Positions 6,265-27,900 of a stretch of 37,837 nucleotides of DNA are shown in pieces (position 1 is the stretch's first letter; the number at the start of each line of letters is the position of its first letter). The notes under the pieces are model-generated. The model ran no database searches and was not told where the DNA came from. It saw only the letters and a list, made by a program, of their open reading frames with translations. Location of the stretch: positions 2,029,743 through 2,067,579 of the forward strand of contig CP070702.1 of assembly GCA_020349905.1 (NCBI GenBank), given 5' to 3'. The position numbers and the translations under genes are program-made. Origin of the DNA: Candidatus Eiseniibacteriota bacterium. Lineage in GTDB: Bacteria > Eisenbacteria > RBG-16-71-46 > JAFGJU01.

Positions 6265-6879
6265 CTATCTGAACAGGGCCTTTATGCTCCCCCACGATTC
6301 TGTCTCCACGGACGTTGCGCAACCGTTCGGGCCTCCCGGCGTGGGAGGGCAGTCAGTTCCCAGCGGAGGCTCGGTTCCCAGATAAGGATTGAGCGCATCG
6401 AAAATGAACCACTCGGCCATGCCGTCCGGCTTTCTTCCAACGGAACGGTCCGTGCCCGCGGCCGCCCCCGAGTAAGTGCAGCAGTCGACCTGGAAGCTGT
6501 CGGCTCCGACGAACTTCCAGAGCCGCACGGTGTCCCCTGAGTTGCTGAGGCTCAACCCGTAGGCGGGATAGCCGTTCTCACGTTCCCAGGCGTAGGACTC
6601 GCTCCCGAACACGACCAGGTGCCCGTGGCCGACGAGCACGCCGCTGAAGGCGTATCTCCAGGTCGTATCGGCGTCGGCCAACCAGTAGCCGTCCAGGCTG
6701 ACCGGAGAACCGGAGGCATTGTATATCTCGACCCACTCGTCGTCGCGGTAGTAGTAGGCACTGTCCCCGTCCCAATCGATGGAAGGAGAAGCCAGCACCT
6801 CGTTGACGACCACTTGTGCGGAAGAGAATCCGGGAAAGAGAATCACGAAAAGCGGCAGAATGAAGGCAATGCGTTTCAT
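6265..6879 (-). CDS. Secreted lamin-tail-domain protein with C-terminal WGxIK motif
   Basis: 204 residues. A signal peptide (1-21, ending SSA) is followed by a lamin tail domain (LTD) that starts VVVNEVLASP and includes DEWVEIYNASGSPVSLDGYWLAD, LVVFGS and the typical SVGRKPDG.AEW segment. LTDs are extracellular Ig-fold domains often found on surface proteins and secreted nucleases. The C-terminus has a short Cys/Pro-rich linker and ends in SWGSIKALFR, which looks like a discrete tail rather than part of the LTD and may be a sorting or anchoring signal (inference). ATG 6879 has a GGGAGG-type site about 9 nt upstream. It lies 102 bp downstream of carbamate kinase, separated by a strong hairpin. 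Confidence 0.85.
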   Translation of the reverse strand: MKRIAFILPLFVILFPGFSSAQVVVNEVLASPSIDWDGDSAYYYRDDEWVEIYNASGSPVSLDGYWLADADTTWRYAFSGVLVGHGHLVVFGSESYAWERENGYPAYGLSLSNSGDTVRLWKFVGADSFQVDCCTYSGAAAGTDRSVGRKPDGMAEWFIFDALNPYLGTEPPLGTDCPPTPGGPNGCATSVETESWGSIKALFR

Positions 6880-8013: not shown

Positions 8014-9174
8014 CTATCGACCCTCGATGAGCTCCCTCATCCGACCGAGTCCCTTCTGGATGTTCTCCACCGAATTGGCGTAGGAAAGTCGCAGATAGCC
8101 CTTGCCGAACTCCCCGAAGGCCGTGCCGCTGAGGACAGCGACTCCCTTCTCTTCGAGAAGCCTGGACGCGAGCTCTTTGCAGTCGATCCCTGTCTTCGTG
8201 ACGTTGGGAAACACGTAGAAGGCGCCCCTCGGAGTCAGACAACTGACGCCCTTTATGGAATTGAGTCCCTGCACCATGACTTCCCGGCGCCTCTTGAACT
8301 CGGCGACCATCTTCCTGGAATCCTCCTGGGGTCCTGTTATGCCCTCGATGCCGGCACGCTGGGTGAAGGAGCACGTGCACGACGTGCAGTTGGTCTGAAG
8401 TCTGGAAACGTGGGCAGCCAGCGTCTCGTTCATCACGCCGAATCCCAGGCGCCAGCCCGTCATCGCGTAGGTCTTGGAATAGCCGTCCAGTATGATGGTC
8501 TTCTCCTGCATGCCGGGGAGAGTCGCGATGCTCACGTGCTCACCTTCATAAAGAATCTTGCAGTAGACCTCGTCAGTCAGCACGAACAGGTCTCTGTCTC
8601 GAACGAGCTCCGCGATTCTCTCGAGCTGGGCCCGCTCCAGGACGCCACCCGTGGGATTCTGGGGCGAATTGAGTATTATCATCCTGGTCCTGGGAGTGAG
8701 GAGACTCTCGAACTCGTCGAGGTCGATGCCGAAGTCGTTCTCCTCTCTCAAGCGCATCGGTACGGCCTTGGCACCCAGAAACTCGATCACCGACTCGTAG
8801 ATGGGAAAACCGGGATTCGGGTATATGGCGTCGTCCCCCTCTTCCAGGATCGCCAGGGCCGAGAAGAACAGTATGGGTTTGGCGCCAGGAGTCACTACCA
8901 CGTTTTCCGGTCGCACTTTCATTCCCCTGTCCTTCGAGACGTACTTTGCGAGCTCCTCCCTGAACTCGGGCAATCCTGCCGACGGACCGTAGTGAGTGTA
9001 GCCCTCCTCCAGGGCCTTCACGGCTGCCCGAGAGATGTTGGCCGGCGTGTCGAAATCGGGCTCCCCTATCTCGAGGTGGATGACCTCCACCCCCTTGGCC
9101 TCTAGCTGTTTGGCCCTGGCCAGTACTTCGAACGCCGTCTCCGTGCCCAGTCTTTTCATGCGCTTCGCGTACAT
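8014..9174 (-). CDS. Class I/II PLP aminotransferase (aspartate aminotransferase-like)
   Basis: 386 residues of fold type I. Substrate-loop HLEIGEPDFDTP (33-44), YGPSAGLPEFRE, NSPQNPTGG with Asn173, TDEVY with Asp201, and the Schiff-base Lys234 in GYSKTYAMTGWRLGF are all present. The C-terminal LRLSYANS carries the alpha-carboxylate Arg. It transfers amino groups between an amino acid and a 2-oxo acid; the specificity (Asp, Ala or aromatic) cannot be fixed from sequence. ATG 9174 has GGGGG about 6 nt upstream and lies only 21 bp after the HhH-barrel gene. Carbamate kinase follows after 84 bp. A Cys pair (CTSCTC) within the domain is unusual. Confidence 0.92.
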   Translation of the reverse strand: MYAKRMKRLGTETAFEVLARAKQLEAKGVEVIHLEIGEPDFDTPANISRAAVKALEEGYTHYGPSAGLPEFREELAKYVSKDRGMKVRPENVVVTPGAKPILFFSALAILEEGDDAIYPNPGFPIYESVIEFLGAKAVPMRLREENDFGIDLDEFESLLTPRTRMIILNSPQNPTGGVLERAQLERIAELVRDRDLFVLTDEVYCKILYEGEHVSIATLPGMQEKTIILDGYSKTYAMTGWRLGFGVMNETLAAHVSRLQTNCTSCTCSFTQRAGIEGITGPQEDSRKMVAEFKRRREVMVQGLNSIKGVSCLTPRGAFYVFPNVTKTGIDCKELASRLLEEKGVAVLSGTAFGEFGKGYLRLSYANSVENIQKGLGRMRELIEGR

Positions 9175-9195: not shown

Positions 9196-11094
9196 TCAAA
9201 AGGCAAAATCGAGCTGGAAGCCGAGCTCGGTATCAACTGTCTCTCCCGTCCTGTGCGTCTGCGAGACCTTGGCAGCCGCTTTGAGCTTCTTCCCGGCCGC
9301 TGCGAGTATGATATACCACCTCACGCCTTCGTCCCAGAGAGGCATGAGGGTCACGCGACCCGGCAGGTCGCCCTCGTATTCATAAACTCTAGACTCGTAG
9401 GACGAGGTATTAAAGTATATCACACGTCCCTTGAGAGTCACCAAATTCCGGGTCCTGTAGTTGAAATCCACGAAGCTGAGAGAACCCTTTTCCCCCTTGC
9501 CGGCTCTGACTGTCGAAAACCTCAGTCTTGACTTGAGCCGCGCGCTGGGATTCCACGACACGTCGGTGTGGACCGTCTCCCTGGTGGAGAGTGAGGAGAC
9601 TCTGCCGTATTCGTCCGAAGGGTCCGCCTCGGAGACTTCCCGCCTGGAAAGCTTTCCCCTGACCCTCACCGTGATGCCTGAGCCGAACTGCTGCTCTACG
9701 GAGCCGGCCGTCTCGTAGCCGGAGGTGGGGAAGCTCTCCCTGAGGGTCGGTCCGGGGTGCTGCACGCCGTCGATGTATGCCCGCAGCTTGTACCGTCCCA
9801 CGCGTGCCTGTGCCCCCAGGTATACCCCTCTCTCGTTCCAGGGGTCCCCCCCCGAGAACGAAGAAGCGCGCAGGTTGTAGAAGTCGCTGTCGTATGACCT
9901 GAACACGCTGGCCACCTCCACGTCGTTCACGACACACACCCAGCCCAGCAGGAACGCTTTGCTGCCTCCTTCCATGAGCGCCCCCTCTCCGAAGAGGCTG
10001 GCTCGCCCGAATGACCACCTGCCACCCAGACCGCCCACAGACGTCCTGTCCCCGGAGAAGTAATACGAATCGGACGCGTCCCCTCCGGACAGGGCCGGTT
10101 CGTAGCCGGCGGTGTAGAACGTGCCTTCCAGAAAGAGGCTTCCCGAGTACTCTCCTGCGAGGCGGAGCGCGAACAACTCCTCGCTCAGCGCGTCCTTACC
10201 TGCGACCTCCCAGTCCTCTCTGTGCAAGCCCGACTCCCCCAGTCTCCTGGCGGTCCCGTCGTCGTTGAGAAACGCATCGAGCCTGCTCCTGGAGAAGAGT
10301 GCGTCCAGGAAAACCCCGTGCCGCGCCAGCTGGACGTGAGCACCTCTAAGCGCCCCGTTCTCTACGGAGGAACGGTAGCCTTTCACGCCGGAACCGCTTC
10401 TGTCCGTTTGCGAAACGGTCTCGTAGCCCCTGAAGAAACCCTGCGGAGCCCAGAGCACGAGCCCCTGCGCAAACTCCGCAGAGAGGTCCCCGACGGAGAA
10501 GGAAGAGAGAACGGATTCCCTCCTGAGGGTGGCGTAGCCGGCCTGGAAGTCTCCGGCCGAGCTCTCTCCCTCATCCTTCTCAGCAAGATAGCAGAGCTCG
10601 ATATGCTGGGAGGGTCTCGAGGTGAAACGGGTGTAGAACCGCAGGTCTTTCGCTGTGCGGGTCTCTTTCTCGCCGACGAGTCTCACTCTTACCTCCAGGG
10701 GTATCCAGAACGGGATTCCCTTCGACGTCACGGCGAGGTAAGAACTCAGGGCCTGAAGAAACTGATAGTCCACGCCAGGTATGACGCTCAGCTCCACGAG
10801 AGACCGGAAACGACCCACTTTTTCCCTGAGCGAGACGATTCTCTGTGCAAGAAGCGGGGAGATCCACGGCAGTTCAGCCAGCTCGGAGGCGGAGGCGGAA
10901 TTGATGTCCATGGGTCTGCCCTCGAGCCTCTCCAGTCTGTCGACCACGAAGGACGCTTCGGAGACTCCTGCCTCTTCCCCTAGAGCGTCCTCGACTTCCT
11001 GAGCCTCGAGCCGGCGAGGGGTGATTTCGCACAAAAGAAAAAGGCTCAGAGTAAAGACCGCCAAGGCCGGCCAGACTCTCATCGCCCTGCCCAT
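9196..11094 (-). CDS. ComEA-like helix-hairpin-helix domain fused to predicted outer-membrane beta-barrel
   Basis: 632 residues from ATG 11094 (AGGAG just upstream); ATG 11082 is a possible alternative. Signal peptide about 1-31, then a double helix-hairpin-helix (62-120) closely resembling ComEA: DINSASASELAELPWI, LAQRIVSLRE, GRFRSLVELSVIPGV. The remaining ~500 residues are alternating amphipathic strands rich in Tyr, Ser, Gly and charged turns. The protein ends in an aromatic strand (FQLDFAF), as outer-membrane barrels do. HhH pairs usually bind the DNA backbone without sequence specificity, so a periplasmic DNA-binding plug on a barrel is suggested. Barrel prediction is by pattern only. 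It follows an LTD/FlgD protein and another OMP in the same operon. Confidence 0.75.
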   Translation of the reverse strand: MGRAMRVWPALAVFTLSLFLLCEITPRRLEAQEVEDALGEEAGVSEASFVVDRLERLEGRPMDINSASASELAELPWISPLLAQRIVSLREKVGRFRSLVELSVIPGVDYQFLQALSSYLAVTSKGIPFWIPLEVRVRLVGEKETRTAKDLRFYTRFTSRPSQHIELCYLAEKDEGESSAGDFQAGYATLRRESVLSSFSVGDLSAEFAQGLVLWAPQGFFRGYETVSQTDRSGSGVKGYRSSVENGALRGAHVQLARHGVFLDALFSRSRLDAFLNDDGTARRLGESGLHREDWEVAGKDALSEELFALRLAGEYSGSLFLEGTFYTAGYEPALSGGDASDSYYFSGDRTSVGGLGGRWSFGRASLFGEGALMEGGSKAFLLGWVCVVNDVEVASVFRSYDSDFYNLRASSFSGGDPWNERGVYLGAQARVGRYKLRAYIDGVQHPGPTLRESFPTSGYETAGSVEQQFGSGITVRVRGKLSRREVSEADPSDEYGRVSSLSTRETVHTDVSWNPSARLKSRLRFSTVRAGKGEKGSLSFVDFNYRTRNLVTLKGRVIYFNTSSYESRVYEYEGDLPGRVTLMPLWDEGVRWYIILAAAGKKLKAAAKVSQTHRTGETVDTELGFQLDFAF

Positions 11095-11124
11095 AATCTC
11101 CTGTAAATAAAGAAGTTGCGCAAC

Positions 11125-11222
11125 CAGAAGCCGCCCCGGGACACCGGCCAGGAATGTTACCAGCTGGCCCCGGCAGCGGCAAGTGCTTTCTTCCGCGGGC
11201 ACTTTTGTTCCCGCGGCTTCTG
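11125..11222 (-). promoter_or_regulatory. Structured leader upstream of HhH-barrel gene
   Basis: The 170-bp gap after the OMP gene holds nested inverted repeats. CAGAAGCCGC (11125-11134) is perfectly complementary to GCGGCTTCTG (11213-11222). CCGCGGG (11193-11199) pairs with CCCGCGG (11210-11216), which overlaps the long stem and so excludes it. GGCCAG (11146-11151) pairs with CTGGCC (11164-11169). Two mutually exclusive folds are typical of RNA switches or attenuators. I do not recognise a known riboswitch class. The open frame through this region to 11292 is probably not coding, as the signal peptide lies after it. Confidence 0.4.
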
Positions 11223-11264
11223 TTCCTCGTCCAGGTGCCACCATCTCCTCGAGCTCCACTGCCG

Positions 11265-12080
11265 TCACTTGCCCCTCGCCTTCGCGGGCCAATTCAGCGT
11301 GAAGACGTCCGTCCGCCCCAGAACAGAATGAAAGGAAGTGGCCGTCTCCAGACCCACCGGCCCCAGGCGCAGGCCGAAGCCCAGTGTCAATTCAACCGGC
11401 TCCGTCTGGACTCCGCACCTCAGGCGGATTCCCTGCTCCGGCTCCAGCTCCACACCGAAATGAAGACAAGAAGACGCTGTCGTGCGCTTGCGCATCTCGC
11501 AGGCAGCGGTCACGTTCGAAGCGGGCCTGAGTAACAACGCGAAAAGCACTCCCCTGGGAAGCGTTCCGCTGTCGCGGCTGGTTGCCGGGTTGCACACGCC
11601 CACGCACGCCTCGAGTTGCGGAAGCGGTCTCACCCTGGCCCCGGCGCTGGCGCCCACGAGACGGGTTTCTCCCACGTTCTCTATGAACATGGAATAAAGA
11701 CCCAAGCAGAGCGAGACCTCGACCGACTCGGTGAGCAGACCCGAGGCCGACGCCGATAAGATGCCTTCCTGATGCAAATCGCTGCCTCGCCCGGCAAACC
11801 CAAAGGTGAGCACGTTCTCTCGCAGGCGGAAGCTGCACGTCACACTCCTCTGGGAAAGCTCGTCCATACCGAAGGGAGAGCAGAAAGTGAAGCTCACCAC
11901 GCCGGGGGACCCTGAAGCTGGAAGCGGCGAAAGGCACAGGGCCCCGCAGGCGGACACACTCAGGCAGTCCCCCATGCCCGCGCTTCTAGAATCTACGACC
12001 ATGCCTTCGAACGCGGCTCCCGTCTCACCCGCGTGCAGAGCCAGCGAAATGCACAGACACAGCGCCGCCAGTATTCTCAC
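11265..12080 (-). CDS. Predicted outer-membrane protein, PorQ/PorV-like
   Basis: 271 residues. GTG 12080 overlaps the stop of the upstream LTD-FlgD gene by 4 bp (GTGA), which argues for translational coupling. A signal peptide (1-23) is followed by SRSAGMGDC, reminiscent of the 'R..GMG.A' start of PorV/PorQ (UPF0164-like) barrels, then alternating strand-like segments (VTCSFRLRENVLTFGFAGRG, ELTLGFGLRLGPVGLETATS). It has more cysteines than is usual for such barrels, about a dozen. The last residues (KARGK) are not a typical barrel end. Probably an outer-membrane partner of the surface protein encoded just upstream; the family assignment is tentative. Confidence 0.6.
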   Translation of the reverse strand: MRILAALCLCISLALHAGETGAAFEGMVVDSRSAGMGDCLSVSACGALCLSPLPASGSPGVVSFTFCSPFGMDELSQRSVTCSFRLRENVLTFGFAGRGSDLHQEGILSASASGLLTESVEVSLCLGLYSMFIENVGETRLVGASAGARVRPLPQLEACVGVCNPATSRDSGTLPRGVLFALLLRPASNVTAACEMRKRTTASSCLHFGVELEPEQGIRLRCGVQTEPVELTLGFGLRLGPVGLETATSFHSVLGRTDVFTLNWPAKARGK

Positions 12081-13849
12081 GGCCCACCTCGACTCCCGAC
12101 CCGCGGCGTCACCACCACGGTGCTCTTAAGACTCCGCCTGTCCCCGCCCGGGCCCGCAACGTCCAGGTGCACGATGTAGACGGCGGGAGGAACGAACCGG
12201 CCGTCGCGGTCGGTACCGTCCCAGATGGCCCGAACCACAGTCCCCACCTTCCTGCGGTCGATGAGTCTCCTCACCACTCGCCCGTCACAATCAAAGATCG
12301 TGAAGTTCACCTTCGCCCCGTGTGCGGGAAGGGAAAAGGAGAAGACTACGGTGTCGTCCAGGCCGTCCCCGTCAGGAGAGATAACTCGACTGCTCATCCC
12401 AATCTCGGACGTCCCGCCAGGTCGTAGCGACTCCGCAACGCTGTTGGGGCCGCACGGCGTGGAACCGTCGAGCGACACACTGGAGGACCAGTTGACCGCC
12501 AGCCGGCTGCTCACCCAGGGAGAGACCCGCTCCAGAGAGGCGCCGCTTCGAGTCGACCAGTCCTCCGAGTAGGCCACTACGTCGCTGTGACAGCCGGTGC
12601 TGTCCTTCACGCAGACCACGTCAGCATACTCGCTCCCCCCCGAGGAGTAGTTGTTCAGCGTGATCCACCCTCCCTCTGGTTCCACCACGCGCGACCGACA
12701 TTGCGGATTCTGTTCCAGGAAGAGACCCCTGTCCTGCGTCACCACAACGTACTCCTCGGGACCCAGGGTGAACGTGAGGGGACTCAAGTACGCCCGCTTC
12801 CTGGAGGAGTCCTCAAGCCACCACCCTCTCAAGTCCACGACGGCCCCCGATTTGTTCAAAAGCTCCACCCACTCCGGGCCTCCAGAGGCCGGCGCATACC
12901 TTATCTCGTTCACCACCACGTCCCCCTCTCCGACGCGCACGCAGGAGGCTGCCGCGTCGTTGTAAGGATTCTCGTCTCCCTCCAGCTTAAGCTCCGCCTG
13001 AATGGTCAGGCTCCCCTCCTGCTCCGGTCGCCACTGGACGCAGACACGTTCCGCGCGCTCGCCCGAGATGGCAGGTGCCGCCCTGGAACCCAGAGGCCGG
13101 CGCTCAACGCCGTTGACGCCGAAGAACTCAACCACGCACTCACCGCTCTCGAGCTCGCGCGCCCCGAGGTTTTCTATCTCGACAGCGACTTCCGTTTGCT
13201 CGAACTGGAGAGGGAGAAGAGGATTTGTGCTCAAGCTTCCGGGCACGATGCCCGCGTCCAGGACACACGCGTTGCGCCTGCCCGGGGAGGGAGCCGCGAG
13301 AGGACGAAAGTCCGACGAGTTGTCGTCGGAGTCCGCACCGTCCGGCCACCTGCCCACGCTGCTGCCGGACGGAGCGTCCTCGGCCGGAGCGGTCTCGAAA
13401 TACCCGTAGAACGTGTGCGCTCCCCAGCCGAGGAGGTCCACCACGAAGTCGCCGCTTCTCAATCTGCACGCGTCCGGACCGTTTTGCAGGTCCAGAGGTG
13501 TGACGAAGTCAGGGGGCGGGCTAAGCGCCTCCTCTCCTACAACCACGAAGCCGCCCGGCTCTAAGAAGAAGTCCGAACCCCACTCGAACGCGGGCTTCCA
13601 GTCGTCTTCCTTCGCACCGTTTCCCGTCTCCAACAGGAACCCCTTCAGAGAGACCAGAGAGTCCGTGGAGTTGTAGAGTTCCACGAACTCCAGGCCGTCG
13701 TCCGGACCCTCCGGGTCGTAGAGCACTTCGTTAATCACTACTGCGGGAGAACCCTGGCAATCGTGCGTGCCGGCGAGCAGTGAAGCGAAGACCGAAACGA
13801 AGAAGAACAGAGTGCACGAGACAAGAGAGAAGAGGCCGCCACCCATCAT
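12077..13849 (-). CDS. Secreted surface protein: two lamin tail domains, CARDB-like domain, FlgD-type C-terminal Ig
   Basis: 590 residues. Signal peptide about 1-33. First LTD about 35-195 (VVINEVLYDPEG, LEFVELYNST, SVGRWPDGADSDDNSSDFR). An Ig/CARDB-like linker runs about 200-305 (VAVEIENLGARELESG). The second LTD is about 308-465 (VVVNEIRYAP, PEWVELLNKSGAVVDLRGWWLED). A C-terminal FlgD-like Ig domain spans about 485-585 (SPDGDGLDDTVVFSFSLP, IFDCDGRVVRRLID, WDGTDRDGRFVPPAVYIVHL). Such C-terminal domains often mark exported surface proteins in FCB bacteria. ATG 13849, or the next codon ATG 13846, follows GGGAGG. The gene is 24 bp after the VWA gene and overlaps the OMP gene. Confidence 0.85.
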   Translation of the reverse strand: MMGGGLFSLVSCTLFFFVSVFASLLAGTHDCQGSPAVVINEVLYDPEGPDDGLEFVELYNSTDSLVSLKGFLLETGNGAKEDDWKPAFEWGSDFFLEPGGFVVVGEEALSPPPDFVTPLDLQNGPDACRLRSGDFVVDLLGWGAHTFYGYFETAPAEDAPSGSSVGRWPDGADSDDNSSDFRPLAAPSPGRRNACVLDAGIVPGSLSTNPLLPLQFEQTEVAVEIENLGARELESGECVVEFFGVNGVERRPLGSRAAPAISGERAERVCVQWRPEQEGSLTIQAELKLEGDENPYNDAAASCVRVGEGDVVVNEIRYAPASGGPEWVELLNKSGAVVDLRGWWLEDSSRKRAYLSPLTFTLGPEEYVVVTQDRGLFLEQNPQCRSRVVEPEGGWITLNNYSSGGSEYADVVCVKDSTGCHSDVVAYSEDWSTRSGASLERVSPWVSSRLAVNWSSSVSLDGSTPCGPNSVAESLRPGGTSEIGMSSRVISPDGDGLDDTVVFSFSLPAHGAKVNFTIFDCDGRVVRRLIDRRKVGTVVRAIWDGTDRDGRFVPPAVYIVHLDVAGPGGDRRSLKSTVVVTPRVGSRGGP

Positions 13850-16357: not shown

Positions 16358-17388
16358 AACGAATCCGCGTACTGCCTGCGTTTCTCCTTCGTCTCCAGGT
16401 TCAGCCGCTTTAGCTCCAAGAAGAGAGAGAGCGGGTTGATGGGCTTTCGATAGCCCCGTCTGACCAGTTCGGCGCGTATCTTAAGACACCCGAATTCGGG
16501 ATGTTCCTTCACGGTCTCGAGTATCATGGGTTCGATTTCACGGTTCACGGCGCCCGTTCCTATGAGCTGCTGGCCCGCGGGCTCCGGGGTAGTGTTGGCT
16601 CCGGCGAGGGGACGCACCTGCTCGGCGGGCGAGGCCTCTTCCACGACTTCGGCCTTTATCTGCTGTTTCACGTCCGGATTGAGCGGGTCCACGATCTCCA
16701 GCTCCGTCTCGTTGGAGAACTCTTCGGCCGCCTCACGAGAGGGTTCCATCTCCTGCGTGGCCGCTTCAGCGGACTCACCCGTGGGTTCTATCTCCTGGGT
16801 GGCCACTCCTGTCTGGGCCAGAGGCCGGGCTTTGCCAAGGCCCCCGCCTTCAACCGTCTCAGTCTGGTTGGGAGATTGTGAAGTCTGTTCCGGTGACGTC
16901 TCTACGGCCGCGTCGGCGTCGTGTGAAGCCTGCTCCGGGGACGCGTCTCCGGCAGCCCGGGCCTCCACGTCACTCGCGGCTCCGTAAGTGCGAGACCCGG
17001 TACCCGGCGGCGTCTGACCTGCGGCCGGGCGGGGTTGCTCAAATCGCTCGACGGCCTCCTGGATTGTTCGGAAAGACTCCAGGATGTTATGGAATTCCAG
17101 AAGCTCGAACACCTCAGCAACTTCGGGGGTCATTCCCGTGAGCTTCAGGTCGCCGCCGCTTTCTCTGATGCCTCTTATCTCGCTTATGAAGATGCCCCAG
17201 CCGGCGCTGCTGATGTAGGTCACCTTGCTCAGATCTATGACGATGTGGAACTGATGGTCCTTCAGAAGGAACTGCAGACGACGCTCCAGCTCGTGCGAGG
17301 TGGTTGTATCGATCTGGCCCAGCACGCGGACCACGACTATCTGGTAGCGAGAGCCGGCCTGTTCAACTATTACGTCAATGCCCTTCAT
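16354..17388 (-). CDS. STAS-domain anti-sigma-factor-antagonist-like protein with C-terminal transposase-type helix-turn-helix
   Basis: 344 residues. ATG 17388 overlaps the upstream stop (ATGA) and has GGAGGAG about 5 nt upstream, so the longer frame is not used. STAS domain 5-115: IVVVRVLGQIDTTTSHELE, IVIDLSKVTYISSAGWGIF. Ser61 aligns with the phosphorylated serine of SpoIIAA/RsbV, while the usual preceding Asp is Ser60. A long acidic, Gln/Glu/Pro-rich linker (about 118-280) carries repeated ATQE(I/M)EP units. The C-terminal domain (283-344) resembles the second winged-helix of IS481/IS3-type transposases (ETVKEHPEFGCLKIRAELVRRG) and matches the C-terminal domain of the upstream kinase/phosphatase. 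It is the likely substrate of that protein. The HTH fusion is not part of the classic RsbV architecture. Confidence 0.85.
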   Translation of the reverse strand: MKGIDVIVEQAGSRYQIVVVRVLGQIDTTTSHELERRLQFLLKDHQFHIVIDLSKVTYISSAGWGIFISEIRGIRESGGDLKLTGMTPEVAEVFELLEFHNILESFRTIQEAVERFEQPRPAAGQTPPGTGSRTYGAASDVEARAAGDASPEQASHDADAAVETSPEQTSQSPNQTETVEGGGLGKARPLAQTGVATQEIEPTGESAEAATQEMEPSREAAEEFSNETELEIVDPLNPDVKQQIKAEVVEEASPAEQVRPLAGANTTPEPAGQQLIGTGAVNREIEPMILETVKEHPEFGCLKIRAELVRRGYRKPINPLSLFLELKRLNLETKEKRRQYADSF

Positions 17389-19949
17389 TTGGTCTCCTCC
17401 TCCGCTGCCGGGGATTGGGTGGCAGTGAATATCTCCTCCGATTCCTGGCCAGCCTGTGTGTAACCTGTCTCGGAACTCAAACCGGTCTCCTCGCCCTGAC
17501 AAACCGCTTCTTCCACCGGCGCTTCACGACTGCGTCCGGACGAAGAAACGTCAAGATCCATGATCTTTGCGCGCCCTTCTGCAGCAAGCTGCTCTCTCTC
17601 TCGCCTGGTGCTCAGCTTGAGCCTTCTCAGACACGCGTATATCTTCCTGGGCGACACGTCCAGCCCGCCGTACTCGACCTGCTTCAATTGGCGGCTGATG
17701 CGCTTCGGGCCGTAGGCGGGAGATTCACTCACGATCCTGAGTATCCTCTGCTGGACCTCCAGGCTCACCCGTCCGAGCCTTTCCAGGGCCCTCGGAGTTT
17801 TATCCCGCAGCCCGTCCTCTCCCAGCTCGTGCATCCTTCTCCGGTATCTGTAGTACGTGGAGGGAGAGACCTTCATGATCTCGCAGGCCTCGCCCACCGA
17901 AACCCCTTCGCTTTCGACGAGGTCAATGAGCCGCCTCCTGACGTCATATATAATATCGTCAGCAACGGCCTTTTCCTTTATGGCAACCAGCGTGATGTCG
18001 TCGTTCTGCGGTTCTCCCCCAGTGAAGTCCGCCACTTCCCGGTTCAACGTGTCGGCGAACTCCTGGGAGGTCATGTGCCCGTGCTTCTTGATGGCCTTGA
18101 GCAGGCGCTCCTCTCCGAACTGCTCACTGGCCGAGTTCATGGCCTCAGTTATTCCGTCCGTGTAGATCACTAGCATGTCTGACTGCTTGAGCTTGATGGT
18201 CTCGGTCCCGATGGACTTCTCGAAGAGCGAGTGGTCTGCCAGGTCGATGCCCACGGGGAACCCCTTGGGATTGAGGAAGTAGGTCTCGCTTGAGTCACCC
18301 CTGTAGAGGACCATGGGATTGTGCCCGGCGCTTGCGTAGCTTATCACCCTGTGCCTGGAATCCAGCACCACGTAGAAGATGGTAACGAACATGCCCTTCT
18401 TCATGTCCTCCGTGACGAAGCTATTCATCCTGGAGACGACGTCCCTGGCGGACCTGTTGCCCCTGGCCTCCATTCTGAGGGCCGTCCTGATCATTGTCAT
18501 GACGAGCGAGCCGGGCACTCCCTTGCCCGACACGTCTCCGACAACGATGCCGAGCGTGTCGTCGTCCACCCAGACGAAGTCGTAGTAGTCTCCGCCCACC
18601 TCTTTGGCGGCCCTGTAGAGGGTCCCTATCTCGAACCCTTCCGCGTCAGGCACCCTGCCCGGCAACAGGGACTGCTGTATTTCCTGTGCCACCTGCATTT
18701 CCTTCTGCAGACGCTCCTTTTCGACGACGCTGTGCTGCGCCTTGCGGAAGCGCGCGGTTATCTCGTTGAAGGCCCGGGCTATCTCGTCTATCTCGTCCGG
18801 CCCTCCCTCCTCGAGCGTTCTGTCGAGCATTCCTTCCCCGATCGCGCGAACGCCGTCGGAGAGCTTCTGTATGGGCTTGACAAACAGGGAGACGACCGAC
18901 CAGATCGCGAAGCTGCCAACCACAAACACCAGCAGCGCGATGAGCACCATTGCCCTTCTGGCCCTCGCCACGTAGAAACTGATGGAGTCCATCCTTATCT
19001 GTACGTGGACCGTACCCAGCTCCGTTGCAGGAGAGCCTGGCGTGTGTATCACGACGGGTGTCGCGAGGGGGATGAGCGCGTTCCCGGGCTTCTGGCCCTC
19101 GGCCCGAGCTTCGGAGAGGACAGACTCGTATGACCCGAAGAGCTGAGAAGGCTTGCCACTCGCCCAGACGTTGCCCTCCGTGTCAACGACCACGATGCTG
19201 GCTATGTAGGGGGTCTCCTCGAGGGTCCTGGCGATTGTCTCGTTGAGCAGCGTCTGCTCAACCGAAAGAGCCATTCTGGACAGAAGGAGCTCGGTGCTCT
19301 GTCTGGCCATTGCGTTTGCGATGGCCTCTCCCTTCGAGGTGATGTTCTCCACTATCGCCTTCTCCTGGCGCACGCCGAAATAGGAAAAGGCGACCGCGAT
19401 GATGGTGAGCAGGATTCCCGAAGCGTAGACGCTGAACTTGAATCGCAGGCTCTTGTGCCATATCGTCTTTCTCCAGGCAAGAGGAGGACGCTTTCGCTTG
19501 CCCAGGAGGTTTTTTCTCATCGTGAGCACGTTCCCGGCCGGGGTCGCATCGTAATTGACCTCGTCCATGAGCCGGTTCATGAGAAAGAGACCGAGCCCGC
19601 CCTTTCTTCCCGTGGCAACGTAGCGTCTGAGGTCCGGCGTGTGGATCTTCTGAAGTTCGAAGCTCTCTCCCTGGTCGGTCAGCGAGATGGAAAGATGGTT
19701 GGGGCCCGACGTGGAGATGTTGATTTCTATCGAGCCGTCCTTCTCCCTGTAAGCGTGCTTGATTATGTTGGCGCACGCCTCGTCGATGGCCAGTTTCATG
19801 GAGTTGGTGGTCTTTGAGGCGACACCGAGTTCCGCGCAGACTTCGTCAACGAAGTCCCTTATCCTCCCAAGTGACCTCTCGTGCCCCGGCACTTTCAGTT
19901 GGAATGACTTGTCGCTCCTGTCGCCGAAGACCCGTCTTACCAGAGTCAT
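17385..19949 (-). CDS. Membrane kinase-phosphatase fusion: RsbW-like HATPase, sensor, HAMP, SpoIIE/PP2C, transposase-type HTH
   Basis: 854 residues from ATG 19949, one base after the previous stop. N-terminal RsbW/SpoIIAB-like serine-kinase ATPase (1-150): N-box DEACANIIKHAY (56-67), G1 DQGESF (92-97), G2 GGLGLFLM (117-124). TM1 is about 172-192, an extracytoplasmic sensor 193-330 (VVVDTEGNVWASG), TM2 333-356, HAMP/coiled coil 357-430. SpoIIE/RsbU PP2C phosphatase spans 436-657: GGDYYDF (452-458), VGDVSGKGVPGSL (470-482), YTDGITEA (596-603), NDDITLVAI (649-657). Then come two helix-turn-helix units (about 683-720 and 730-785) of the IS481/IS3 transposase N-terminal type and an acidic tail. 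It should both phosphorylate and dephosphorylate the STAS protein encoded next. Domain order and HTH are unusual. Confidence 0.9.
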   Translation of the reverse strand: MTLVRRVFGDRSDKSFQLKVPGHERSLGRIRDFVDEVCAELGVASKTTNSMKLAIDEACANIIKHAYREKDGSIEINISTSGPNHLSISLTDQGESFELQKIHTPDLRRYVATGRKGGLGLFLMNRLMDEVNYDATPAGNVLTMRKNLLGKRKRPPLAWRKTIWHKSLRFKFSVYASGILLTIIAVAFSYFGVRQEKAIVENITSKGEAIANAMARQSTELLLSRMALSVEQTLLNETIARTLEETPYIASIVVVDTEGNVWASGKPSQLFGSYESVLSEARAEGQKPGNALIPLATPVVIHTPGSPATELGTVHVQIRMDSISFYVARARRAMVLIALLVFVVGSFAIWSVVSLFVKPIQKLSDGVRAIGEGMLDRTLEEGGPDEIDEIARAFNEITARFRKAQHSVVEKERLQKEMQVAQEIQQSLLPGRVPDAEGFEIGTLYRAAKEVGGDYYDFVWVDDDTLGIVVGDVSGKGVPGSLVMTMIRTALRMEARGNRSARDVVSRMNSFVTEDMKKGMFVTIFYVVLDSRHRVISYASAGHNPMVLYRGDSSETYFLNPKGFPVGIDLADHSLFEKSIGTETIKLKQSDMLVIYTDGITEAMNSASEQFGEERLLKAIKKHGHMTSQEFADTLNREVADFTGGEPQNDDITLVAIKEKAVADDIIYDVRRRLIDLVESEGVSVGEACEIMKVSPSTYYRYRRRMHELGEDGLRDKTPRALERLGRVSLEVQQRILRIVSESPAYGPKRISRQLKQVEYGGLDVSPRKIYACLRRLKLSTRREREQLAAEGRAKIMDLDVSSSGRSREAPVEEAVCQGEETGLSSETGYTQAGQESEEIFTATQSPAAEEETK

Positions 19950-19950
19950 C

Positions 19951-21924
19951 TCACTGCGCCGTCCTTTCTCCTGAGGAGAGCCTGGCCTTCGCCTTTTCGA
20001 TGTTCTTGGTAACCATTTCATTGTCGGGGTCCATTTCCAGGATCTTCTGCCAGGATTCAATGGCCTTCTCGTATTCGCCGGAGTTGAAGTGATTCATGCC
20101 TTCCACGTACAGCTCTCTTATGTCCTCCTCCACCTTCGGCTTCGGAGGAGAGAGCCTCTCTTCTATTCTTTCGGCAAATCTCAGGGCGTCTTTATCAGCC
20201 GGATAGAGCCGCAGCACCTCGTTCACCATGGCCTTGGCGTCCTGGTAGTCCCCTCTCTCGTAAGCCCTTACAGCCCGCGTGTACAGCCCGAGCGCGTCTA
20301 TCCTGCGCCTGGCTTCTGCCAGGTTCTCATCCATGCTCTCCAGTGACTTCTTCGATTCATCGAGCCCGGCCAGGGCAACCGGGTTGTCGGGTTCAAGCAG
20401 CAGTACCCTGTTCCAGGCAGAGAACGCCTCCAGATGCTTCCCGGATGCGGCAAGCTGTCGCGCCTGCTCGACGCGCGCGCTCACCTCGTTCGAGACGAGC
20501 GAGTCCGCGCGGGATATCCAGGCCGAGACTTCCTGATTCTCCGGCTCCAACCGGCTTGCCTGTCCGAACTTCAAGAGGGCCAGCCTCAGCTCGCCCTGTT
20601 CCAGGAACTCCCTGCCCAGTTCAACCAGGACGTGCACCCTCACCTGGAGCTCCGCCCTTCGCGCCTCTTGCTCTGTCTTCTCGGCCAGGGCTTGTCTGGC
20701 CCTGCCGATGCCCTCGGCCGCCTCCGCGTTGCCCGGCTCATACTCCAGTACCAGGTTCCACTCCTCGAGCGCTGCAGAGTAGCTGCTTTCGGCGAAGGCC
20801 TCGCGCGCGAGCTGCATGTGTGCGTCTATCTTCCTCGACCTTTCCTCTTTCAGCATTCTGGCCACGTCCCGCTGCCGCTCCAGAACCTCGCGCTGCCTCC
20901 TGATGGCCACGGGGTCTCCGAACGCGGCGGAGACAGAGAACTGATGCAGGCTTCCGAGTTCGGTGCTTCCCATCGAATAGTCGAAGCTGTAGTCCCTCCA
21001 TCTGACCCCGGCTCCCGCAGTGAACTTGCCCTCCTTGAGCCCCATTCTGAGCGCCACCAGGTTGTCTATGAGATACTCCCCACCCAGAGACACGGCAGTC
21101 GGGGCCCTTTCCGGAAGGGAAGCATCCGCTGCCAGCGTTACCGCGTCCTGGTTGTCCCTGAAGGCCCCGCGGTATGCCGCGCCGATGCGCACCGTGCGAG
21201 GGGTTCTCTCGACCCTCTCGACCAGCTTAAGCTTGGCCCCCGGCACGTCGCGCAGGGCCAAGCCCAGGGTGAAGCCTTCCAGGTAGGGAATCGGGTACAT
21301 GGCTCCCAGGTCGAAACCGACTCCGCCGGCGCTGTGGTCCCCCATCCTCTCGCTCACTATCTTCAAGGACGCACCCACCCTGACGTCGAACAGTGCCTCC
21401 CGGCCGTAGGAGAAGAGCATCTCGCTCTGCGAGAAATCTATCTCTCCCAGGTGTCTGCTCCTCGAGTCGTAAGCCTGTATTCCGCCCGTTCCAACTCTTA
21501 TGAAGGCGAAGCCGAAACTGCCGAAACGGACCGTGGGCTGGCACACGGAGAAGAAGTCGTAAGAGCTGCCCTCAAACAGAGTGGAGTGAAAGCCTGCGAC
21601 GCTCGTCTGCTCCAGACGCGGAAGCCCAGCAGGGTTCCAGTAGAGCGCGGTCGCGTCATCCGAGACCGCCGTGAACGCCCCGCCCATTCCGAGAGCCCTC
21701 GAGCCTGCCCCCAGAGAGAAGACGCTCTCCGTTCCACCCGAGGCGCTGCTGGCGGCCGTCGCCGGGCAGGTCGCGCCTGCAAGCAGCACAACCGACACCA
21801 GGATCGTCGCAAGCATGTGCGCCGTCCCGAAGCGAAGCCGTCCAGACGCACGCACCGCTCCCTTTCCGGACTGGTCGCCTCTCCCGGCTCTCAGTTTGAA
21901 GCCTCTAGTGTCAGTCACTCTCAT
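19951..21924 (-). CDS. PorV/UPF0164-like outer-membrane protein with C-terminal TPR domain
   Basis: 657 residues. ATG 21924 overlaps the giant gene stop (ATGA). The hydrophobic signal segment (about 37-58, ending TAASS) is preceded by 36 basic residues; an ATG at 21816 would give a normal signal peptide, so the true start may be internal. The PorV-like barrel region (about 62-325) opens with SLGAGSRALGMGGAFTAVSDDATALYWNPAGL, diagnostic for the family. A charged coiled coil (about 335-355) leads to four or five TPR-like helix pairs (358-650; for example YSAALEEWNLVLEYEPGNAEA, YEKAIESWQKILEMDPDNE). In type 9 secretion PorV carries cargo from the translocon to the surface. Here it follows the gene for a FlgD-domain giant, a plausible cargo (inference). 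Confidence 0.85.
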   Translation of the reverse strand: MRVTDTRGFKLRAGRGDQSGKGAVRASGRLRFGTAHMLATILVSVVLLAGATCPATAASSASGGTESVFSLGAGSRALGMGGAFTAVSDDATALYWNPAGLPRLEQTSVAGFHSTLFEGSSYDFFSVCQPTVRFGSFGFAFIRVGTGGIQAYDSRSRHLGEIDFSQSEMLFSYGREALFDVRVGASLKIVSERMGDHSAGGVGFDLGAMYPIPYLEGFTLGLALRDVPGAKLKLVERVERTPRTVRIGAAYRGAFRDNQDAVTLAADASLPERAPTAVSLGGEYLIDNLVALRMGLKEGKFTAGAGVRWRDYSFDYSMGSTELGSLHQFSVSAAFGDPVAIRRQREVLERQRDVARMLKEERSRKIDAHMQLAREAFAESSYSAALEEWNLVLEYEPGNAEAAEGIGRARQALAEKTEQEARRAELQVRVHVLVELGREFLEQGELRLALLKFGQASRLEPENQEVSAWISRADSLVSNEVSARVEQARQLAASGKHLEAFSAWNRVLLLEPDNPVALAGLDESKKSLESMDENLAEARRRIDALGLYTRAVRAYERGDYQDAKAMVNEVLRLYPADKDALRFAERIEERLSPPKPKVEEDIRELYVEGMNHFNSGEYEKAIESWQKILEMDPDNEMVTKNIEKAKARLSSGERTAQ

Positions 21925-24900
21925 TTCGCCACCGCGATCTTAAAAGTCGCGTCCACTCCGTTCGCCTCGAGCTTGCAGATGTAGACCCCGCTCAAGACGA
22001 ACTCTCCCCGCCCGTTCCTGCCGTCCCACTCTATCTCCCTCAATCCTCTTCTGCCCTCCTGGTCCCGGTCCGAGTACGCGACGGAGAAGACCAGCTTCCC
22101 GTCGAGCGTGTATATCTTCAGCGATACTCTCGAATCCTCGTTCAGGTAGTAAGAGATGGCCGTGGATTCCTTGCCGGCTTGAAACGGATTGGGATAGTTG
22201 TGCACGCCCGCAAAAAGCCTGGAAGGAGGCGTCAGGACCCCCTGGAAGCTTCCGCCACCGGGACCCACGACTCCGAGCGCGTTGCCGGAGACGGCGTCAA
22301 AGACGTCGAACGCGGAGGCGTCCTCTATCTCCAGCGCCACTCCACCCACGCGCGGGCTCTGGGAGACGTCCACGGCCACGAGGAGCGTGTCGCTCTGACC
22401 CGTGGCAAGAGTGTCGGCCACCGGAGACAGGTCCACGCGCACGGGGTTAGTCGTGAACCCCGTGGCGATGCCGAGAAGGACGTCGGGCGCGGAATATCTC
22501 GACACTTTCACCGCGGAGAGAGCCGCCGAGGGATCGAGGAGCCTGGCGCTGCCCTCTCCCGTGACGTAGAGCGTGACGCTTCTCAGGCCGATGGGACTGC
22601 CCTCTCCCGTCTCGACGGGATTCTCTATCCGCAGGGCCATGAACCGAACCGACAGCTCGCCGGCAACTACCTGGAGCGGCGGCTCGATCAAGGGCAGCAC
22701 TTCCACGACCATGTCCTTGGACTCTGCGTAGACTCCGATCTCCCTGGTTCGCAGCGAAACGTGGGCCGCAGCGTTTGTGTTCTCGTCGTCTGGAATCCCG
22801 GAGATGGTTGCTGTTATGTACTCTATGGAGGAGTTCACGGACGGAGCCGTCACGTTCCAGCGAACAGGAACTCCGACGGAGAAATCCTGTTCTGCGCTCG
22901 CTCCACCGGAGATGGAATAGCCGGACGGCAGCGACAGGGCCACCCGGCCGCTTCCGGAAACGGCCGCCGTTCCCCCGTTGAGCACCGTGGCCTCCAGAGT
23001 GAATGTCTCTCCCAACCTGAGGCTCCCGTCGGTGGCGGCAGGCGGGGCCACGATGGCCAGAGCAAGAGACAGCGAGGCCCTTTCCACCGTACTCAGGTAG
23101 AGGGACCTGCTTGCGCCCGTGGTGTCCGCCTCCTGCCCAGTGTTGACCGCGCCAGGGAGACGTTCCAGAGATACCAGGAACGCGGAGGAACCCGTGGCGG
23201 AGGCAGGGGAGCTCAGCGACCACTCGACCGGGACTCCCGGAACGAGAGGCTGGGTCGCGGGCGAGAGAAGAACGAAGCCGGCAGGTATGCTTATTCGCAA
23301 CGCACCCGAGCCGTCGAATGCCCCCTCACCCAGATTCGTCACCGCCGCGCCTATCTTGAAGTTCTGTCCTGTTGAAAGCGTTCCGTCCGTCGCACCCTGA
23401 GGTTCTTGCACGAAGGCGTCCAGCGTGAGACGGGCGGGCATTTGTATTGTCACTTCTGTCGTGTCGTCCACCGAAGGGGCAACGGACAGCGGAAGCCCGC
23501 TTATGCCACCTGTGGCAGACTGTATCTGGGCCGTGAACCTCTCCGCGCCCGGGGCGGCTGCCGCCTGAACGGAGATGCTGGCCGCTTCCTTACTCCCTCC
23601 CTGGACGGACTGAATCACGGCTGCGCCGCTGATGAGGGAGCCGCCCGCGGTGGAGAGCTGCACGACCACGTCTCTGGCCTCCTCCTGTCCCAGGTTCTCG
23701 ATCTCCACTCCGACCTGGAAGGTTTGAGACGTGTCCACGTAGGGGGCGTTGGGGGAACTGGAGACCGTGGAATAGACCCTCACGTCTCCTGAGGCGCTGA
23801 CTGTCACGCTATCTGGAGAGGTACCTAGCGTCTGGGAAAAGTAGAACCCGTTCCAATCAGTCCCGGTCACTTCCAGTGACCCGGAATAGGAACCCGCGGC
23901 TATGACGGCACCGTCGATCGTCATGCCCTTAAAAGAGAGCGAGGTGATGCCGTGACCCGCCACGGCGCAACCGCCGGAGCAATCCACCGTGTCGGCCAAC
24001 GCGTCGAGACGGAAAAGACTCGAATCGGCGACAAACAGGGTGGCATCACCAATGTTCTCCACACCCACAGAGAAACTGACGTCCTGCCCCTGAGCCACCA
24101 CGCCGGGCTTGACCGAGCCGTAGAGGTATCTCAAGAGAGCGGGGCTTTGCACCGAAAGCTCGCCCTGCGGCGAGTAGATTGTTCTCTGAAACGGCACGCC
24201 GTTTTCGACCCCTTCCACCGTGGCGTCAACCCTGTAGACCTGGTTCGCCATGGCGGCGTGTACGGTGTCGGACACGAAACTGAGCTGGGCAGTGCTCTGG
24301 GACGCGATCTGAAGGACCGCGCCCTGGCCGCTGGCCAGAAACTCACGCTCCGCGTCTCTGAAGCGAATGTCACAGAGAGCAGGGTCGATGCTGACCGGCG
24401 CGTCTCCGGTGTTGGCCAGCTGCATTGTGAAGGCCGCAACCTGTCCGCGCGTGACCCTGAGAGGACTGAGACTTCCCGCGACCCACTCGAGCGCCGCCCG
24501 TCTCTGAACCAGGATGCTGTCGCTCCCGGTGGCCAGAAGGCTGTCGCGCAGGACTCCGTTTTCCCGCAAGCGCATCAACAGCTCCGGAAGGTAACGGCCG
24601 GTCGTGAACCCCGTGTCTACCTCCGAGGAAGAGAAGCGAAGCACTTGCACCGAGTCCCCCTCGATGGCCAGGGAGTCGGAGAGAAACGCCAGGAAGGTGG
24701 CCGGAGGGCTTCCGAAACTGATACGAGTCTGAGGTTGCACGAAAGCGGTTGCCTGCCCGATGTTTCGTAGCGTCACTTCGAAGGCGGGCTCGTAGCCGGT
24801 GCTCAACGTTTCTGGCTGAACAGCAACGTACTCCAGCACGGCCGGAAGCTGTGCCGTCACGCTGTCCGGGTCACAGTAGAGGGTGTCTGAGAACGAGGCT

Positions 24901-27900
24901 CCGTTCTCGGTTCCACTCAGGAACAGTCCCACGGAGTAAGTGTCCGCGCCGAGTGAAAGTGACACCTGCGCGGCCTCGAACTGAACGCTCGTCTCCCTTG
25001 CGCCGCCCAGCAGAATGGGCGCCGCGAGAGAGGCGACGTATTCCGAGCCCTGAGGACCGAACGCCAGGTATGTTCCCGACGTGTCCAGCGCAACGGGGGC
25101 CGTCCCAGAATTCATTATTCTGGCCGAGAACGAATGGGTTTGCCCGACCGAGACGCTCCGCCTCGAGAGACTTCCGCTAACGTAGGAGAGGACCGCAGGA
25201 CTCTGCACCGACCACGCTGCGGTGCTGTCGGCACCCGAGTCGCTCACCCCTACTCCGGACGCGGAGCCGGACGCGAAGCCGTCGATTGTACACGGCCCCA
25301 GAGGGGCCAACTGGTCCACGTCAACCTCGAATGAGAAGAGACCGATTTCGCCGGCCTGCAGAGTGTCCGGCAGTGCGGGCGAGACCAGAGAGTCGATGTG
25401 GCCGGCGCTGGAAAAAGTGAGTCCCGTCGCCGTTATCTGGAGAGGAACCGATGCCGGGTTCTCGACAGTCATCTGGACGGGCACGTCCCTGCCCCCCCTT
25501 GTCACGCTGCTCTGGGCCAGGACAGTGCGAACCCTTATGGACACAACGCTCACGGTGCTGGTGCCGGCCTGCAGGCTCTGGGTGAAGGAGCTGCCGGCTC
25601 CGTCGTACCCGGTGAGACTGAGAATCGGAGAGTAGGAACCTGCATCAAGCTCCACAGGGACGGCCGTTGCCTGGAACGTGAGAGTCGCTGTGCCTCCTCC
25701 TGCCAGCACGACGACCGTGTCCGGGAGATTGGCCGTGTACGTTCCGTCGTTTCCGTCCTCCAAGGTGAACGCGGAGGATGGAACCAGATACACCCTGCTC
25801 CCGCCGATGTTTCGGACCTGAAGCGAAAACGAGACCACCTGGCCCGGAGCCACTACCGCCGGGGAGATGGAACCGGCCACGTACTGGACCCGCGGCGGGG
25901 AAAGAAGCACGAGCCGGACAGACCCCGCGGCCGTTCCCTGGACCGAGCTTACGCGCACCGTATCGGAGCCCGCGGTGCTGCCCGCTCTGAGGGCAAAGGA
26001 AGCGATCCCGTTGGCAGCGGTGAACACCTGAATGCCCGGGACCACGCTGTCTACGTCGGACGCCACGACCTTGCTCAGGAGGCTGGTTGCAGTGACTTCT
26101 GTACCCGGGCCCACGTTGTTCCCGTAGGCGTCGGTGAAAGGACCGGTCCCGACAAGCACGAACGATGTGCCGTCGGCAGTGAGCGTGTCCTGGACCGGAT
26201 AGACGGACACCGTTCCCGCCGGAAAGGCGGGAGCCAGGCTGATGTTCCCCTTCGAAGCGTCTATCAATGCTCCCTGCGTGTCTTCTGCAAGCAGGGTGAT
26301 GTTCCCTGCGGCCGTGTCGGTCAGCTTGAGTCTGGATTGCGAGCTTCCAGAGACAAGTCTGAGCGAATCCGCGTTCGAGACCGACCAGGACGCCCCTCCG
26401 TCGACCGATATCCTGCCGGTCCCGGAGGAAGACGTGAGTCTCACGAGACTCGTGTCCGAGGTGTCCAAGTTCCCGAAGCTGTCGATGGCCTCGACCGAAA
26501 CGGAGAGAACCGCCGCCGCCGTGTCGGCCAGGGCGGAGGCGGGTAGAATGCGAAGGGCGGTCGCGCCCGCCGGCGTGGACGTTGCGAAGACGTCGGACAC
26601 AGCGTCGTGAGGGACCGTCGTACAGTACGCGTCCATGGTGTCGCTCCGGCCCGAGAACTGGGACGCGCGGTACAGAACGGTGATGACTCCGGAAGCGTCC
26701 GTGTTGCCCGTCTGAATCGAAGCCCCGCCGGAAGTATTGTTAGGATTCGCGGGGTCGTCCTCCAGCGAGCCGTCTGCCGAGTCCTTTATCACGACGCTCG
26801 TCTGTTCCCCGCTTTTCAAGTTTCCAAAGCTGTCTCTCACCGTTGCGCTCAAGACCTGGGTGCCCCCGGCGTTCACGTTGAAAGACCCTCCGGGCGCGAT
26901 GACGACGCTGGCCGCGCTCCCGGCCACGACCTGAAGCCCGCCAGAGTCACCGTCTATCTGTGGCTGCGAGGTGTCGGCCGCAGAAAGGGTGTGCACGCCG
27001 CTGGTGGTTAGCCGTAGAGAGCCCGCCAGCCTCTGAAACCCGCTGTCGGCGGCAACAAACTGGTAGTAAGGGGGAAGCACGGTGCTGTCTCCCGCGTCAG
27101 TACAGGAGAAGCCCACGACCCCCGTGTAGCCGGTGGCTCTGTTTCCGTAGACGTCCCTGCCCTCCACGTCCACGTCCAGCCAGCTTCCGGCAGGGGCCCA
27201 GCTCGCCGAGGCGGTCAGCACGAGCGCGTCACAGGCCGAGGCGACGACGGTTATGCCTCCCTGGCTGCCGTTCACGGACGGCTGCAGGGCGTCGGTGGCA
27301 ATCACGGACTGCTCGCCTGAGGTGGTGAGCGTGACGGAGAGAGGAAAGACGTGCCGCCCGCTGTCCGAGACCGCGAACGTGTAGTCGGGAGGAAGAATTG
27401 TCTGGGGATTTCCGTCCGTGCTGGAAAACTGCACGGTCCCCGTATAGTCCTTCACCCTGTTTCCGTGCGCGTCGTTCACGGCCACCACAACGTCGCTCAC
27501 GGTGCCTGCGATGACCGGGTCAGTGACACCCGACACGTCGAGCGCAGCGGCGGACGAATGGTCAACCACGACGTAGGCGGTTTCGACCGGAAAGGTCGGC
27601 GCGTTCGTGTCTGCGTCCATCACGGCGACGAGGAACTCAGAGGCGTTCGTATCGTAGTAGTCGAAATATGCCCGGGAGCTGTCCGCGGGCATCTGAACGT
27701 CGAATATCTGTACCGCTCCCTCGCGCTGCCTGAATATCCCGCTCGGCGAATTGGTCCACAGGAAGAGCGTCTGGGAAAGAGACACGGGAGAGACGTTTCC
27801 GTATACGTCCCTGGACAGGACGGTGAAGGTGCCCTGCGAGCCTGCCTCCAGAAACAAGGTGTCCGGGACCAGATCCAGCACGGAAGGCGGCGCGGCAGAG

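Follow-up and report, generated by a model that had tools for sequence, protein, structure and literature searches.

We analysed a window of 37,837 nucleotides, the whole stretch considered here, from Candidatus Eiseniibacteriota bacterium (assembly GCA_020349905.1, contig CP070702.1, positions 2,029,743 to 2,067,579 of the forward strand), which belongs to the 2.69-Mb genome G000. Our subject is a gene at 9196..11094 on the minus strand, whose product joins a helix-hairpin-helix (HhH) domain to an outer-membrane barrel and for whose family we use the working name HHB (HhH-barrel). Its minus-strand neighbourhood runs from a 754-aa gene with a weak VWA match through a gene for a protein with two lamin-tail domains (LTD) and a FlgD-like C-terminus, a gene for a small outer-membrane protein (OMP) and HHB itself to an aminotransferase gene, with intergenic gaps along that order of 24, -4, 170 and 21 nt. 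A preliminary description of the window had placed the LTD, small OMP and HhH-barrel genes together, and this placement was confirmed, with all three on the minus strand. The longest open reading frame (ORF) of HHB begins at TTG 11292; translation probably starts at ATG 11094, which is preceded by AGGAG and gives a protein of 632 aa.

The predicted protein consists of a signal peptide, a periplasmic HhH pair and a 24-strand outer-membrane barrel. The HhH domain (residues 44-122; 10729..10965, minus strand), delimited by homologue alignment, lies directly after the signal peptide, as the preliminary description had stated, and its ComEA-type pair matched Pfam PF12836 (HHH_3) well beyond chance (48 bits, cut-off 27, E=1.4e-12). 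Scores against two TIGR ComEA models stayed below threshold (31.2 bits, cut-off 152.35; 28.5 bits, cut-off 53.1). Residues 131-632 were covered by no family model among Pfam, TIGR-type models and PHROGs; the PHROGs search gave no match to HHB at all, and a Pfam scan up to E=1 gave none to the secretin PilQ/GspD domain PF00263 or to the plug (PF07715) and barrel (PF00593) domains of TonB-dependent receptors. The barrel that had been expected over these ~500 residues was recovered by AlphaFold2 (65 homologues; pLDDT 90.5, pTM 0.87), which placed 24 strands of at least 9 residues between 131 and 631, followed by a C-terminal Phe (barrel residues 131-632; 9199..10704, minus strand). Foldseek alone returned generic barrels only. 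With VIA-align, the best solved-structure matches were the ushers FimD/PapC (Z about 14-15, 331-371 residues, rmsd 3.4-5.1), only slightly ahead of smaller porins. The most conserved segment is the loop between strands 5 and 6 (residues 208-248; 10351..10473, minus strand), which carries the motif FGQGLxLW...ENxxxxG in homologue alignments. Its mean column entropy was 1.53 bits, versus 1.7-2.3 in other barrel segments, and it is possibly folded into the pore.

A genome-contig scan detected 335 HHB relatives, in Bacteroidota, Ignavibacteria, KSB1, Zixibacteria, a Caldithrix metagenome-assembled genome (MAG) and Eisenbacteria. The closest named relative among the loci compared came from a Candidatus Eisenbacteria MAG (L026, 59% identity over the barrel). 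Literature searches of open-licence PMC papers found no paper describing an HhH-barrel. HHB is an undescribed family of Bacteroidota and neighbouring phyla, ordinary as an item of genome annotation and unexplained as a family. Of the 335 relatives, 80 were kept. The first locus set (set A) was picked by best score, a biased choice, and it also supplied the sequences for the OMP model. Counts for set A run over 83 loci, with L001, L003 and L004 left out because they duplicate the window, L026 and L027. Set B comprised 38 loci chosen by hand from an even sample, with L147 excluded (too short, no HHB match). The even sample covered 247 genomes across the phylum to which G080 belongs, which the database calls Bacteroidota and which there takes in the green sulfur bacteria. 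HHB was present there in 205/247 genomes at 1e-10 and in 194/247 at E<=1e-20; the 11 genomes with matches between these limits were counted as without full-length HHB. Within the phylum of the window itself, 4/47 genomes had full-length HHB. Absences are soft, since many genomes are possibly incomplete MAGs.

The gene of the inner-membrane channel ComEC (PF03772, E=2.3e-58) lay directly downstream of HHB in 19/83 loci of set A and 2/38 of set B, so the neighbourhood conservation with ComEC that the preliminary description had proposed as a check was found, within one clade. In the HHB tree (five sequences omitted as duplicates or fragments) all 21 HHB-ComEC loci fall into that clade (support 0.997), where ComEC follows HHB in 21/21. 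The pair persists there without the OMP in L063, L064, L068, L093, L104 and L112, and is kept without SprA in G112. At L112 the pair is flanked by gyrB on the upstream and recQ on the downstream side (both named by eye), and at the Pedobacter locus L047 by the OMP and an enoyl-CoA hydratase. Across the even sample, HHB occurred in none of the four ComEC-negative genomes (0/4, Fisher p=0.002) and in 4/36 genomes with a strong DUF5689 match (E<=1e-40) vs 190/211 others (Fisher p=7e-22), p values that ignore kinship and overstate contrasts resting on few clades. In the flavobacterial genomes compared, DUF5689 genes were not beside ComEC (coordinates, by eye). No secretin match was obtained in 23 of the 45 HHB genomes tested, among them 10 of the 17 green sulfur genomes.

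Our preferred, though tentative, reading is that HHB may be an outer-membrane DNA-uptake pore of Bacteroidota and neighbouring phyla, working with ComEC, in which the HhH has turned into a plug or docking domain. The architecture, family, neighbourhood and distribution are as described above; from them we infer DNA as the substrate, the gate role and the roles of the partners. The usher-sized 24-strand barrel would be wide enough for double-stranded DNA once the conserved inner loop moves. Loop 208-248 and the HhH would together close the pore, and DNA would pass on their movement. The ComEA-derived HhH at the periplasmic mouth could serve as a gate or docking site from which DNA goes to a separate ComEA or to ComEC; ComEA and ComEC would then pull it onward. 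The FadL/PorV-type neighbour might seal the pore laterally or bear a protein that captures DNA at the surface, which in the window could be the LTD protein. Such a route with ComEC as its inner-membrane channel need not use a secretin or type IV pilus. Somewhat more doubtful is the wider claim that HHB is the missing pore for DNA import in Bacteroidota, in green sulfur bacteria and in their relatives, that it functions without secretin or type IV pilus, and that Flavobacteriaceae have exchanged it for the DUF5689/TonB-type barrel system. Passages of the literature bear on the DNA-uptake reading: RA0C_RS04920, of the DUF5689 type, is reported as essential for transformation in Riemerella (PMC8459023), and natural transformation is described for the green sulfur bacterium Chlorobaculum limnaeum (PMC3613366). 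For P. gingivalis, the corresponding passages of PMC11532111 state that ComEA and ComEC are needed for competence, call the crossing of the outer membrane into the periplasm unclear, and report that no T2SS or T4SS has been identified.

Several observations weigh against DNA uptake. No experiment linking HHB to DNA was found in the literature. The ComEC linkage arose once and was not seen in other loci, and ComEC was searched, and detected, in G059, the source genome of L026, in place of G000; the HHB locus L026 is identical in ORF lengths and coordinates to L003 of the same-family genome G001. Beyond the kinship that the p values ignore, the four ComEC-negative genomes look related, with similar SprA scores, the DUF5689 contrast may reflect a single replacement in Flavobacteriaceae, and 4 genomes hold both DUF5689 and HHB. 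The window genome carries a canonical ComEA, a PilB-type ATPase and two secretin matches. Its ComEA, a short protein (LPGIG...VRGIG), sits between the PilB/GspE-type ATPase and a TonB-dependent receptor (L152:6825-10597, G000:C1 about 12.8-16.6 kb). Since G000 holds this ordinary set, HHB is not needed for the conventional route in this organism. A DNA channel unlike the ComEA/PilQ route, as suggested in the preliminary description, is therefore not required in the window genome, although 23 of the 45 HHB genomes gave no secretin match. As a separate observation, relatives repeatedly show HhH matches adjoining PilB-like ATPase frames (for example L006-L008, named by eye).

To the same side belongs the state of the HhH domain. 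The glycines of GhG hairpins in HhH motifs contact DNA, and the hairpins of the window protein read PWIS and PGVD in place of GIG, that is, an HhH fold without the usual DNA-contact glycines. Among the 65 aligned homologues, a complete GhG was present in 0/65 at hairpin 1 and in 2/65 at hairpin 2; glycine occupied the two hairpin-1 positions in 3/65 and 0/65, and the two hairpin-2 positions in 53/65 and 3/65. The domain is also acidic, with a net charge of -2 in the window and a family median of -6. An ordinary DNA-binding role of the HhH was rejected as unsupported, given the loss of GhG in nearly all members together with the acidic domain. The DNA-binding domain of the preliminary description was thus not borne out, and one half of what that description had named as speaking against itself, an HhH without DNA-contact residues, is what the alignment shows. 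Given the loss of GhG, a gate or docking role of the HhH fits better than a DNA-binding role. Of the DNA-uptake interpretation first put forward, the barrel fold and the ComEC neighbourhood survive; the HhH as DNA binder and the LTD-FlgD protein as a general part do not.

The main rival, which we consider rather unlikely, is that HHB is a protein-export or surface-assembly pore, usher-like or like a small SprA, served by a FadL/PorV-type shuttle and with the LTD-FlgD protein as its cargo in the window. The nearest solved barrels are indeed 24-strand ushers, the partner OMP has the PorV/FadL fold, and porD (NF052317), a gene of the type IX secretion system (T9SS), lies near HHB in 13/83 loci of set A and 12/38 of set B, a further point against DNA uptake. 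Secreted proteins of the C-terminal-domain (CTD) type occur near HHB in the window, L043 and L046, and in a Bacteroidales MAG a SprA of 2440 aa lies two genes downstream of HHB (L051:9974-20236). SprA_N was detected in 53/54 genomes of the first search, all of which came from HHB loci or HHB-bearing relatives, and this biased set had suggested HHB as a T9SS component. That candidate was rejected because all 57 SprA_N-negative genomes among the 247 of the even sample carry HHB (57/57); 54 of these 57 are green sulfur bacteria, judged by the FMO protein. In the window's phylum, SprA_N occurs in 39/47 genomes and full-length HHB in 4/47. The partner genes follow the same line. The small OMP lies directly upstream of HHB in 73/83 loci of set A and 17/38 of set B, but in the 12 green sulfur loci read from set B neither the OMP nor porD stands beside HHB. 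Among 62 selected genomes, members of the OMP family (E<=1e-21) occurred in 10/11 HHB genomes with SprA, 1/9 without SprA and 0/42 HHB-negative genomes. The export explanation also leaves the ComEC operon unexplained. Where HHB and T9SS both exist, the PorV-like partner may tie HHB to T9SS cargo. The SprA of the window genome itself lies in a 1439-aa open frame (L153, G000:C1:1501255-1502448), versus 1977-1999 aa in G001-G003, and may be shortened or frameshifted.

A second alternative, in our estimate also unlikely, is a porin for envelope maintenance or polymer import without any relation to DNA, with the HhH as a structural remnant and the ComEC operon as a chance neighbourhood of one clade. 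The near-core distribution (194/247 genomes), the degenerate HhH and the single origin of the ComEC linkage would all fit such a porin, and to our knowledge transformation has rarely been reported in the groups that carry HHB. A general porin would not account for the absence of HHB from ComEC-less and most DUF5689 genomes, nor for an HHB-ComEC pair that persists while the other neighbours change.

Among the other genes of the window, the small OMP (11265..12080, minus strand), the usual upstream partner of HHB, was modelled as a 14-strand FadL/PorV-type barrel (AlphaFold2, pLDDT 88.2), and its gene overlaps the LTD gene by 4 nt. Foldseek gave PorV (8gl6_F and 6h3i_F) as its best matches, and VIA-align gave Z 26-28 to TodX/FadL-type channels and PorV. 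The LTD gene (12077..13849, minus strand) encodes a secreted protein with two lamin-tail domains (Pfam LTD, E=1.7e-28) and a FlgD/CHU_C-like C-terminus, whose FlgD_ig and CHU_C matches fall below the Pfam cut-off. A relative of it, by clustering, also lies upstream of HHB in L005, and the LTD-FlgD protein, which the preliminary description had counted into the possible channel, is no general component, having been seen only in Eisenbacterial loci (window, L005). LTD genes as a general neighbour of HHB were likewise rejected: in 3 Bacteroidota proteins tested, the linking cluster shares CTD-type tails and no LTD domains. The LTD protein is probably a surface cargo local to Eisenbacteria, and together with the small OMP it looks like a cargo-carrier pair. 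Passages of PMC10994853 report that PorV binds the C-terminal domain of T9SS substrates. Bacterial lamin-tail domains are described, in parts of PMC6085458, as occurring with nucleases such as ExeM, whose in vivo degradation of extracellular DNA did not require the LTD, and, in parts of PMC8289736, as occurring in DNA-degradation loci; to assign DNA capture to the LTD protein would be speculation. Positions 6265-6879 on the minus strand encode a further protein, of 204 aa, with a single lamin-tail domain (E=2.6e-12).

Elsewhere on the minus strand of the window, positions 19951-29048 encode a protein of 2375 aa that has CARDB and, at its C-terminus, FlgD_ig, overlapping a 657-aa protein with UPF0164 and TPR matches. 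We take UPF0164 to be PorV-like, and the two look like a second pair of secreted protein and OMP, cargo and carrier. Downstream of HHB, the class I/II aminotransferase (8014..9174, minus strand; Pfam Aminotran_1_2, E=2.5e-73) has homologues behind HHB in L002, L003 and L005, which makes it a conserved neighbour in Eisenbacteria; it is probably not functionally linked to HHB. At 17385-20060 on the minus strand lies the gene of an 891-aa protein with HATPase, HAMP, SpoIIE phosphatase and C-terminal helix-turn-helix domains, overlapped by the next gene, which encodes a STAS protein.

If DNA uptake through HHB is correct, it would be a type of DNA-uptake pore separate from the secretin route and conserved over much of a phylum, and would bear on how Bacteroidota and their relatives gain genes. 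HHB offers a concrete candidate gene family for the outer-membrane step, which passages of PMC11532111 call unclear in P. gingivalis and for which 10/17 green sulfur genomes gave no secretin match. If it is wrong, what is left is a 24-strand pore of the outer membrane that is widespread, uncharacterised and often accompanied by a partner.

Compared with known systems, HHB shares with the chaperone-usher pores FimD/PapC the 24 long strands (Z about 15, 355-371 residues aligned, rmsd 3.4-3.8 in the cryo-EM rows) and an extended loop joining early strands, a possible plug of the pore. It differs in sequence, with identity of about 10%, and in having an N-terminal HhH instead of usher domains; the Pfam scan gave no usher match in HHB, and no chaperone or pilin gene was seen among the window genes neighbouring it. 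With PorV and the FadL family, the small OMP shares a 14-strand barrel with N-terminal helices, and the PorV_fam model matches its homologues (E=7e-11 and 4e-15). The cut-off of 90 bits was not reached (window OMP 12.9 bits, homologues 42 and 56 bits), and structurally the OMP is tied between FadL-type channels and PorV. ComEA has a homologous HhH pair, and the HHB family profile matches the ComEA chains 8dss (E=3.3e-11) and 8dfk (E=1.3e-9); in HHB, however, the pair is fused to a 500-residue barrel, has lost the GhG hairpins and is acidic. In Riemerella anatipestifer, RA0C_RS04915/04920/02645 likewise combine a proposed outer-membrane barrel with an HhH protein used together with ComEC in Bacteroidota, according to passages of PMC8459023. 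There the barrel carries a carboxypeptidase-regulatory domain and is accompanied by a DUF5689 protein, whereas the HhH protein is separate, and the distribution of DUF5689 is nearly the reverse of that of HHB.

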